The notes beneath the pieces are model-generated. The model saw nothing but the letters and a program-made list of their open reading frames with translations, was not told the origin of the DNA and searched no databases. The translations under genes and the position numbers were made by a program. From positions 1 through 20,279 of the IMG/VR virus record IMGVR_UViG_3300025120_000742: a stretch of DNA of 20,279 bases, one strand, 5' to 3'. The stretch is from a virus. Every line of letters begins with the position of its first letter. The first letter of the stretch is position 1. Of the stretch, positions 4,050 through 6,267 are shown in pieces.

Positions 4050-4227
4050 TAACTTCAAGTATCTGTATCGTAGCTCCCTTCTTGTTTAGTGTAATTCCGT
4101 CCTTGTTGGGTTTCTTAGGTGCTAAGTATTTGATGGCTTGTGCCTCGTCCCTAGCCCACTTAAGTGCGTAACCCCGGTATTCCGGGGGCATATCAAAGTG
4201 CCTATATATAATCTCGTATTGGTTCAT
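4033..4227 (-). CDS. Hypothetical protein, 64 aa
   Basis: A small mixed alpha/beta protein (MNQYEIIYRHFDMPPEYRGY...ILEVNEIDN) with no membrane segment. The pattern of a beta strand, a helix containing ARDEAQAIKYL, then a closing strand ATIQILEV resembles small phage proteins that convert or present modified residues, but I do not recognise a named family. The start overlaps the methyltransferase stop as ATGA and the end overlaps the HNH gene, so it is embedded in the operon and very likely translated. Confidence 0.65.
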   Translation of the reverse strand: MNQYEIIYRHFDMPPEYRGYALKWARDEAQAIKYLAPKKPNKDGITLNKKGATIQILEVNEIDN

Positions 4228-5408
4228 ACAATCCTATTGATTAATGTATGAAAGGCTTTGGCTGCAGTTTGTGGGACTACTCCATTTCCGAGAAGTCGCA
4301 GTCTGTCCACCCTACTGGAAGACCCATCAGTTGCTCCACCCAGCTTGGGTTCAACTTTAACAACCCTTGGCTCTTCCCATTCGTGTTGCTCTTCATTAGG
4401 TCTTGCTGGGTATTTTCCCCGGCTGCATCCGGTAAAAGATTCCGAGGTTTTTCCTCTTGGTTCTTCTTTGGATAAGCACCCTTCCAATCCCTCGATGTCG
4501 GTGTCGGAAAGTTGTGCATCCCTTGAACTTGTTCCCCTAAGTTGTGCTTGCCCCGGTCTTCCATTTTCGCTCGACTGTCTTGTTCCTTCGGAGTTCCCCA
4601 GTTCTTCGGATTTACTACTTCCTCTCGGAGGTTCTTGCAACCACCCTTCTTCTTTGCTTCCGCTAACTTTTCGGGACTCCTTGCTGGTAGGTTGTCCATT
4701 GTTGATGGAGTTGCCCAATTCTTCTCGTGGTGTATTACTGCATCCCTCAGTTTCGCTCCGTACTTCGTTCCGTTCTCCCTCGTTGCCGAGAATCCCTTCT
4801 CGTTCATCTCTACATTCTTCGCTACTCCCCCCTCTACGCAGCCCGCTACTGAAGCTGTTGGCCAACCCAAGGATGTAGACTCTTTTTCTCTGATGTGGGA
4901 AGCCGACTTCACCCGCTGAGAATATTCCCGCCGTTGCTCTATAACCCAACTCTTCCAATGTTCGGAGGACATATTGGAGAACCGGTTCGCCGTCTTGAGT
5001 GCAGCAACTGAGGATTCCTTCAACGTTTTCGAGGAAAACAATTCTAGGTTGGCACTCTCTGATGCCTTCGGCGATGTATGGGAATAGATGCCTTGGGTCC
5101 TCGGTAGCTTTTCTAGATCCCGCTTGAGAGAACGGCTGGCAAGGGAATCCTCCAGATATGATGTCCACTTGTCCTCGAAACTTTCTGTAAGGGAAGGTCT
5201 TAAGGTTCGTGTATATAGGTGCTTGATGAAGCTTCCCCGTTTCCATCTTGTTCGCCAAGTTCGCAATAGCGAAGGCTTCGATCTCCACATAAGCGATTTC
5301 TCTGACATTTGGCAGAACTTCTCTAAGTCCTCTTCCGATTCCTTCGTACCCAGTGCAGAGACTGAGGTGATTGATTGTATTTGTTTTGTTAGTATCCACA
5401 TTGTTCAT
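4224..5408 (-). CDS. DNA (cytosine-5) methyltransferase
   Basis: The 394 aa protein carries the C5-methyltransferase motifs in order: motif I LSLCTGYEGIGRGL (15-28), motif IV SGGFPCQPFSQAG (85-97, catalytic C90), motif VI FLENVEG (125-131), motif VIII GFPHQRKRVYILG (169-181), and C-terminal VEPKLGG plus RVDRLRLLGNGVVPQ (motif IX/X region, 366-380). Residues 182-340, where the target recognition domain should be, are Gly/Ser/Glu-rich and low complexity with recurring LANS/LGNS/LSDT units (182, 231, 270, 300). It likely methylates phage DNA against host restriction; no partner endonuclease is seen. ATG 5408 overlaps the exonuclease stop (ATGA) and its own stop overlaps the next ATG. A second long frame lies within it (separate entry). 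Confidence 0.93.
   Translation of the reverse strand: MNNVDTNKTNTINHLSLCTGYEGIGRGLREVLPNVREIAYVEIEAFAIANLANKMETGKLHQAPIYTNLKTFPYRKFRGQVDIISGGFPCQPFSQAGSRKATEDPRHLFPYIAEGIRECQPRIVFLENVEGILSCCTQDGEPVLQYVLRTLEELGYRATAGIFSAGEVGFPHQRKRVYILGLANSFSSGLRRGGSSEECRDEREGILGNEGERNEVRSETEGCSNTPREELGNSINNGQPTSKESRKVSGSKEEGWLQEPPRGSSKSEELGNSEGTRQSSENGRPGQAQLRGTSSRDAQLSDTDIEGLEGCLSKEEPRGKTSESFTGCSRGKYPARPNEEQHEWEEPRVVKVEPKLGGATDGSSSRVDRLRLLGNGVVPQTAAKAFHTLINRIV
4277..5401 (-). CDS. Candidate overprinted protein in alternate frame of the methyltransferase gene
   Basis: A 374-codon frame with no stop lies on the same strand as the methyltransferase, shifted +1, with its first ATG only 7 nt after the methyltransferase ATG. 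Its second half is modular. WPTA at 180, NWATPSTMDN at 228, NWGTPKEQDS at 267 and NFPTPTSRDW at 297 alternate with AKLRDAV, KNLREEVV, HNLGEQV and RNLLPDAAG. It ends LNPSWVEQLMGLPVGWTDC (350-368) and SEME. From memory, phage and bacterial proteins with WPTP repeats, an EYSQR segment (here at 159) and LNPxWVExLMGxPxGWT do exist in databases. However, each WxTP is also the forced +1 echo of L(A/G)N(S/T) in the main frame, so expression is unproven. The true start within the frame is unknown. Confidence 0.4.
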   Translation of the reverse strand: MWILTKQIQSITSVSALGTKESEEDLEKFCQMSEKSLMWRSKPSLLRTWRTRWKRGSFIKHLYTRTLRPSLTESFEDKWTSYLEDSLASRSLKRDLEKLPRTQGIYSHTSPKASESANLELFSSKTLKESSVAALKTANRFSNMSSEHWKSWVIEQRREYSQRVKSASHIREKESTSLGWPTASVAGCVEGGVAKNVEMNEKGFSATRENGTKYGAKLRDAVIHHEKNWATPSTMDNLPARSPEKLAEAKKKGGCKNLREEVVNPKNWGTPKEQDSRAKMEDRGKHNLGEQVQGMHNFPTPTSRDWKGAYPKKNQEEKPRNLLPDAAGENTQQDLMKSNTNGKSQGLLKLNPSWVEQLMGLPVGWTDCDFSEME

Positions 5409-6157
5409 TTCTTTTTGGGTTTAAGCATTCTCTCTTGCCAATATACTTTGGCCGAAAGCTTTGCACATTCTAGGTAGTGATTAAATTCGTTATCGCTCCA
5501 AGTCTTGTGATAGTGTTCAGCGGTGTTGGTGTCAATACAAACTGATATAATTTTTGGATTGTAATTTAATTTCAATTTTTTAGCTAGCATTACACTCTCG
5601 ATTGCTAACTGCTTGCAGTCCTTGCCGTAGAACTTACCCTTGCCGTCGCAGCTTCGACACTTGTAATCCGCGAGAAAAACCTTCTCGTCCTTATCTAGAC
5701 CGATAAAGTCCACACTTCCAGCAATCTTAAATCTTGAGTCCGATATAATGTATTCGCAGTCAATGACTTGCACACCGCTATCGTTGACCCAATCAATGAA
5801 TGGTTTCGCCCAATCATCAAAGGCCGTAGCGTCCCCCTCTCCCATCATTAGCCAATCCTCAATCCTTTTGTGAACGGCCGTCCCAAACTCTGAGCTTGGT
5901 ATCATATTCCCCGTAAATGGGTGCGGTCTAAATCCGTAGACCATATCCTTTAGTTTAGTATAGTGCAAATCGGTATGCTCCCTAGCTAACTCGACTAGCT
6001 TCCTAGGCTGGTAAACGGAATCTAGGAAATCATCTTTAACAATTCCTAGCACTGTCGTAACGGACGGATAGGCTCGCCCCATTTTGCGTGCTTGTGGAGC
6101 GGTTGTAATGTCCTCCAAGAACTGTGGCTTCTTAGCTGATGTATAGAAGTGGCTCAT
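5405..6157 (-). CDS. PD-(D/E)XK exonuclease, RecB/Cas4-like
   Basis: ATG 6157 is chosen because AGGAGG lies 7 bases upstream; the longer frame needs a TTG at 6196 and overlaps the upstream small gene. The 250 aa protein has the RecB-nuclease order: GTAVHKRIEDW (92-102, H96), AGSVDFIG (146-153, D150), FLADYKCRS (161-169, D164 and K166) and CKQLAIES (181-188, Q183). That set marks an ATP-independent exonuclease that resects DNA ends. Paired with Erf and the SSB-like protein it would feed annealing-based recombination. A CRSCDGKG stretch (167-174) adds two cysteines next to the active site, with C181 close by; I see no complete Fe-S cysteine set. The end overlaps the methyltransferase start (ATGA). 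Confidence 0.85.
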   Translation of the reverse strand: MSHFYTSAKKPQFLEDITTAPQARKMGRAYPSVTTVLGIVKDDFLDSVYQPRKLVELAREHTDLHYTKLKDMVYGFRPHPFTGNMIPSSEFGTAVHKRIEDWLMMGEGDATAFDDWAKPFIDWVNDSGVQVIDCEYIISDSRFKIAGSVDFIGLDKDEKVFLADYKCRSCDGKGKFYGKDCKQLAIESVMLAKKLKLNYNPKIISVCIDTNTAEHYHKTWSDNEFNHYLECAKLSAKVYWQERMLKPKKK

Positions 6158-6267
6158 TTCTTTTCCTCCTTCTTTTTCTTTCTTGTCTTGCTCCAATCAA
6201 TAGAATCATAGTTTGCGTCATACTTCTTTTGATCGTAGCCTTTTTTCGGTTCCATTCCTTTTCCCAT
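6154..6267 (-). CDS. Small basic protein, 37 aa
   Basis: A 37-codon frame from ATG 6267 to TGA at 6154-6156 fills the only apparent gap between the 63 aa gene (stop 6273) and the exonuclease. The product MGKGMEPKKGYDQKKYDANY continues to DSIDWSKTRKKKKEEKK, strongly basic at the end. Its stop overlaps the exonuclease ATG (ATGA), and the exonuclease Shine-Dalgarno AGGAGG is part of its Lys/Glu-rich tail. Similar KYDxNYDxI-type small proteins occur in marine phages as far as I recall. No function is known; a nucleic-acid-binding peptide is possible given the charge. Confidence 0.6.
   Translation of the reverse strand: MGKGMEPKKGYDQKKYDANYDSIDWSKTRKKKKEEKK

Follow-up and report, generated by a model that had tools for sequence, protein, structure and literature searches.

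Two overlapping reading frames on the minus strand of the window (the whole stretch analysed, 20,279 nucleotides, a 20-kb virus record that is possibly a fragment) most probably encode a naturally split C5-cytosine DNA methyltransferase, with its two subunits overprinted on one stretch of DNA. We put the probability of this reading at roughly 0.85. Both frames are open and under selection, the main-frame protein (alpha) carries an identifiable but partial set of methyltransferase motifs, and relatives hold the same parts either fused in one frame or split between two. That the +1-frame protein (beta) is translated, and that it assembles with alpha, is inferred.

Organisation of the locus

Beta starts with ATG and runs for 374 codons in the +1 frame relative to alpha. 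The features of the locus are as follows.

4224–5408, minus strand: alpha, main-frame C5-cytosine methyltransferase, 394 aa, motifs I–VIII and X (PF00145, E 9e-36)
4851–5384, minus strand: alpha catalytic large domain, residues 9–186 (AF2 model mostly confident; Foldseek E 3e-13 to M.HhaI)
5127–5147, minus strand: FPCQPFS of alpha, within the catalytic large domain
5016–5030, minus strand: ENV of alpha, within the catalytic large domain
4872–4889, minus strand: RKRVYI of alpha, within the catalytic large domain
4404–4850, minus strand: alpha linker, residues 187–335, low complexity, predicted disordered, pLDDT about 30
4359–4409, minus strand: alpha block PARPNEEQHEWEEPRVV, overlapped by beta and nevertheless conserved in the main frame (alignments and distant relatives)
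4227–4313, minus strand: alpha C-terminal helices with motif X (helices 366–374 and 379–393 well predicted)
4272–4289, minus strand: alpha motif X, GNGVVP
4277–5401, minus strand: beta, +1-frame ORF, 374 aa, WxTP modules and a candidate motif IX
4907–4957, minus strand: beta W..WV..QR.EYSQR.K segment, residues 149–165, ahead of module 1
4853–4864, minus strand: beta module 1, WPTA, residues 180–183 (WxTP enriched over codon shuffles)
4706–4717, minus strand: beta module 2, WATP, residue 229
4589–4600, minus strand: beta module 3, WGTP, residue 268
4499–4510, minus strand: beta module 4, FPTP, residue 298
4301–4357, minus strand: beta motif IX candidate KLNPSWVEQLMGLPVGWTD, residues 349–367 (strongest alternate-frame selection; in-frame equivalents in actinophage fusions)
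5397–5408, minus strand: start region ATGAACAATGTG, with the alpha ATG at 5406–5408 and the beta ATG at 5399–5401, the latter overlapping an in-frame alpha GTG
5405–6196, minus strand: upstream ORF, 263 aa, nuclease-like by sequence (a relative is annotated as exonuclease)

The beta ATG lies seven bases downstream of the alpha ATG in the window, with wide conservation of AATGTGGAT at the start among homologs. In many homologs only the beta ATG is present, together with an alpha GTG that shares ATGTG with it; judged from these sequences, the alpha start in many homologs appears to be the GTG that overlaps the beta ATG. The alpha gene of the window has its own ATG, which overlaps the TGA of the upstream ORF (ATGA, 5405–5408), and this overlap of stop and start suggests translational coupling. 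The order of upstream ORF and alpha matches the neighbourhood found in Phage C75C1. At the other end, the TAG stop codon of beta sits within the codons of the alpha GNGVV motif, an end position common to many homologs.

Openness of the +1 frame

A sequence-only reading of this DNA had pointed to a 374-codon open +1 frame. This frame was confirmed on the minus strand, and none of 5000 shuffles of the main gene, in which synonymous codons were permuted with the alpha protein and codon usage preserved, reproduced its length (mean 10.5 stops). Related viral loci were collected, 65 for the main protein and 32 for the alternate one, and a scan with a beta profile confirmed at least 532 places. The +1 frame was stop-free in 56 of 57 near-full-length homologs, with about 7 stops expected per gene; in the one exception, Paenibacillus phage Shelly, a distant homolog, stops were counted starting at a fixed position. 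By region of the main protein, 55 homologs had no +1 stops in residues 12–60 (56 expected), 61–120 (35 expected), 121–180 (46 expected) and 181–330 (117 expected), and three in residues 331–372 (58 expected). Of the five regions, four had +2 stops in line with expectation, and residues 12–60 had 80 versus 143 expected. Among 87 further loci, 85 pair both proteins in the same +1 relation and the remaining two share this frame offset over an aligned overlap that is short.

The same reading had cautioned that L(A/G)N(S/T) in the main frame automatically echoes as WxTP in the +1 frame. The echo exists, and the frame might then be nothing more than main-frame constraint and composition that happen to read as WxTP. 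The four W/F-x-T-(P/A) modules which it had listed are present (WPTA, WATP, WGTP and FPTP), but shuffles that preserve the main protein yield only 0.39 WxT(P/A) by chance versus the 4 in the window, and 0.46 versus 3.65 across the 57 homologs. LN(P/A/Q)xWVExLMG occurs in 55 of 57 homologs and in none of 5700 shuffles. Since the shuffles reproduce neither the number of WxTP modules nor this motif, the echo does not explain the +1 frame; nor do they give its openness, and alternate-frame dN/dS values lie far below simulated ones (see below). An echo or composition artefact is thus ruled out by the codon shuffles together with the simulation of main-frame-only constraint, and we consider it scarcely credible.

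The EYSQR segment and the terminal KLNPSWVEQLMGLPVGWTD noted earlier were also located in beta, at residues 149–165 and 349–367, respectively. Within the former, W149, W152, V153, R157, E159, R163 and K165 show no variation in 48–49 homologs.

Selection on the two frames

In the +1 relation, position 3 of a main codon is position 2 of the alternate codon, and main position 1 is the alternate wobble position. Differences were taken position by position from homolog pairs 75–97% identical. The fractions at main positions 1, 2 and 3 were 0.342, 0.230 and 0.260 for residues 181–230; 0.426, 0.293 and 0.303 for residues 231–280; and 0.302, 0.093 and 0.150 for residues 341–372. Positions 1 and 3 were about equal in residues 281–340 (0.381 and 0.378). 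For residues 373–394, mostly past the alternate stop, the values were 0.070, 0.052 and 0.399. In close pairs, the alternate wobble (main position 1) evolves fastest overall across residues 181–330, whereas past the alternate stop main position 3 is the fastest.

Substitution rates in the overlap were 0.665 for changes silent in both frames, 0.219 for those silent in the main frame only, 0.180 in the alternate frame only and 0.085 in neither. Sites silent in both frames were few (529) and the pairs are not independent, so that the bootstrap intervals are too narrow. When constraint on the main frame alone was simulated, the alternate dNN/dNS was 0.74–0.87; the observed values were 0.52 for residues 8–180, 0.49 for 181–330 and 0.09 for 353–374. 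The strongest alternate-frame selection is therefore in the region of the motif IX candidate, where 0.09 compares with 0.74 simulated. For the N-terminal 170 residues of beta, selection is clear by stop avoidance and weaker by dN/dS. Comparison of dN/dS in both frames thus found the alternate frame under purifying selection of its own, below the main-only simulation.

The reverse control, in which the alternate-frame codons were shuffled, gave no observed main-frame stops versus 284 expected (residues 181–345, 55 homologs). Because selection acts in each frame and this reciprocal control points the same way, both frames are kept as coding. Frequent +1 stops in homologs, or neutral variation in that frame, would have refuted the proposal of an overlapping gene; both were looked for and neither was met. 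Stop avoidance, substitution patterns, the reciprocal control and the split and fused relatives all support a real overlapping pair over a wrong-frame echo in databases. Both frames are presumably translated, although for beta this is inferred from sequence and there are no expression data.

Domains and predicted folds of alpha and beta

Alpha meets the catalytic criteria of a C5-cytosine DNA methyltransferase (PF00145) with its PCQ and ENV motifs, and that of a motif X near the C-terminus with GNGVVP in well-predicted helices. A structure model built on a 23-sequence alignment, drawn from the window and the related viral loci collected here, was mostly confident for residues 9–186, had a pLDDT of about 30 for residues 187–335 and was again confident for the C-terminal motif X helices; in a Foldseek search about 174 residues of it matched the large domain of M.HhaI and M.HaeIII. 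The main-frame region that had been described as low complexity (182–340) corresponds closely to residues 187–335, which are of low complexity and predicted disordered. No motif IX was recognisable in alpha, which has this disordered stretch where the recognition domain would be expected.

Beta matches phrog_1008, ‘DNA methyltransferase’ (E 4e-17), over residues 77–369, as do 49 of 49 beta homologs; the end of phrog_1008 (285–320) is matched by the motif X region of alpha and not by beta. No Pfam or NCBIfam model was matched by beta alone. Its best Pfam match, HMG_box_2 (E 0.009), was found in only 10 of 49 members and was treated as chance. A sequence search of beta against solved structures (PDB) gave no match, and a search of the PDB with a short motif IX–X peptide found no methyltransferase, the only hits being nanobodies with E values of 0.45 and above. 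Modelled alone by AF2, beta gave a poor structure (mean pLDDT 49, pTM 0.19) that had no PDB fold match by Foldseek. Such a model could reflect a domain that folds on its partner; it neither supports nor refutes the split enzyme.

The assignment of motif IX to beta rests on single-chain methylases of actinophages (Silvy 53, Ritam007 68 and PFR2 gp47; phrog_116-like), which share the WxTP modules, motif IX and motif X with the pair. Unlike in the window, a single frame there holds IX, X and one or more WxTP-like modules together with the catalytic domain. In PFR2 gp47 the matches to PF00145 and TIGR00675 extend through the motif IX block, as far as positions 312 of 324 and 315 of 329, respectively. 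The equivalent sequence in beta, KLNPSWVEQLMGLPVGW, is a candidate motif IX by virtue of these in-frame fusions, whose PF00145/TIGR00675 match spans the block; we also take the block shared by beta and the actinophage proteins to resemble motif IX of M.HhaI. The WxTP modules are probably the target recognition domain, as inferred from position and homology; their fold has not been shown. Further WxTP-like modules were seen in the +1 frame of the Silvy, PFR2 and Ritam007 genes.

Beta might instead be a real overlapping protein with no part in the methyltransferase, such as an independent accessory or anti-restriction protein. It has no recognisable fold, and its long N-terminal region (residues 1–170), which overlaps the catalytic domain, contains no known domain. 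Yet relatives fuse the same WxTP/motif IX block in frame to a catalytic domain and motif X, and alpha itself lacks motif IX and is disordered where a recognition domain should be. An unconnected beta is accordingly quite improbable.

Comparison with split and fused methyltransferases

The gene for the small subunit of M.EcoHK31I overlaps that for the large subunit in another frame. This enzyme consists of two polypeptides, the large one with motifs I–VIII and X as well as the predicted target recognition domain (TRD), with motif IX on the small one (PMC3404938). M.EcoHK31I (C5, YGGCCR) is the closest characterised enzyme, with the same split of motifs between chains, although no sequence comparison underlies this; as far as sequence motifs go, its arrangement of a large chain with I–VIII and X and a small chain with IX is met by alpha and beta. 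The two differ in that selection here places the region that is variable and recognition-like in the frame of the small subunit rather than in the large subunit, and in that beta covers almost the whole gene from the alpha start. In M.AquI, another naturally split C5-methyltransferase, alpha has motifs I–VIII and the small subunit IX and X (PMC3404938), whereas here motif X remains with alpha.

Cluster O mycobacteriophages (Corndog gp7/gp6, Firecracker gp6/gp5) and Arthrobacter phage ArV1 (067a/067b) also have a +1 overlapping gene with WxTP and motif IX. In Firecracker and ArV1, where the records already list the two as overlapping genes, the catalytic gene stops after motif VIII and the +1 gene has WxTP-like modules and motif X, with VNPAFAEWMMG or LSPRFVEWMMG as the motif IX block. 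Unlike in the window, these phages have an overlap of only about 200–270 bases and carry motif X on the second gene. For the Cluster O pair, it was left undecided whether there are two products or a frameshift, hop or intron (PMC4351075).

Programmed ribosomal frameshifting would make a single alpha-to-beta chain, with catalytic domain, WxTP modules and motif IX, in place of two subunits. The split does fall after motif VIII, single-frame fusions do occur in actinophages, and a frameshift, hop or intron was not excluded for Cluster O phages. However, a one-way shift would not need the alpha frame to be free of stops in the variable region (0 versus 284 expected), a second shift back would be required to reach motif X, which lies in the alpha frame, and the beta frame begins with a conserved ATG of its own where alpha starts and contains no stop across the catalytic region. 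A product made only by frameshifting is disfavoured by the reciprocal stop test; we regard it as unlikely, with some small chance left to it. For the question left undecided in PMC4351075, our result speaks for two products, in this branch at least.

In Paenibacillus phage Shelly gp55/gp56 (‘g55 internal gene’), as here, a nested +1 ORF matches phrog_1008 and alpha has motif X. Its beta begins about 180 bases after alpha, and its alpha is only 28.8% identical to that of the window. Records of Paenibacillus larvae phages label the nested ORF as internal gene or second methyltransferase. In the uncultured phage KM23-C739 (2189–3025), the catalytic frame is annotated as an 80-aa fragment beside a beta-like ORF annotated as methyltransferase. 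When E. coli genomes were searched with a relative from a Salmonella phage, four had a match, annotated as DNA cytosine methyltransferase.

Proposed assembly of the enzyme

In the split enzyme as we propose it, alpha would form the catalytic large domain, with AdoMet binding and the PCQ nucleophile (motifs I–VIII), and continue through a disordered linker to the motif X helices. Beta would provide the small domain, its variable WxTP modules probably contacting the DNA sequence and its motif IX docking this domain onto alpha. With the motif set incomplete in each chain alone, alpha and beta are expected to assemble into one active enzyme; activity is inferred. The nearly coincident starts should hold the two chains at near equal amounts, although initiation is likewise inferred and there are no data on it. 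Most likely the enzyme would methylate phage DNA and so evade host restriction, which is again an inference.

We found no report of the present arrangement in the literature searched, which left out most subscription journals. What appears new is that the genes overlap from start to end with their start codons almost coinciding (ATGTG), that the signs of selection locate the variable region in the hidden frame, that exchangeable modules are open in two frames, and that the arrangement is widely distributed among phages. Annotation records mostly give the catalytic frame only (e.g. Phage C75C1 and Acinetobacter phage ABMM1); a likely essential subunit is therefore absent from many phage annotations. 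The second protein, mostly overlooked, probably makes up half of an enzyme common in phages, and the annotated gene expressed alone would probably yield an inactive enzyme, as far as activity can be inferred. As same-strand overlapping genes in phages go, the pair is also unusually long and well conserved, and it can be tested.

Variation of the WxTP modules

Counted as W/F/Y/L-x-T-P/A/V past residue 150, the signatures number 2 to 6 per gene across homologs. Three loci about 94–96% identical where aligned (L066, L072 and L073) have 4, 3 and 2, respectively, so whole modules are gained or lost while both frames remain open. By analogy with the recognition domains of multispecific phage enzymes, the modules may set sequence specificity. 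A tentative extension, to which we give slightly less than an even chance, is that a large class of phage methyltransferases hides its recognition subunit in an overlapping frame and alters specificity as WxTP cassettes, which must remain open in both frames, are gained, lost or exchanged, the variable region of the catalytic subunit being a passenger linker. Near-identical methyltransferase genes at three other loci (L014, L088 and L090) also differ by whole WxTP modules, with both frames open. In Klebsiella phage BUCT711 (2662–3177), a short methyltransferase passes almost directly from catalytic domain to motif X, and may have lost the recognition region.

Other reading frames in the window

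A 206-aa antisense ORF (4258–4878, plus strand) lies opposite the alpha/beta pair and is probably a by-product of codon composition. Elsewhere in the window, a dATP/dGTP diphosphohydrolase-like protein (PF18909) is encoded at 2161–2517 and is overlapped by an ORF in another frame (2133–2417).
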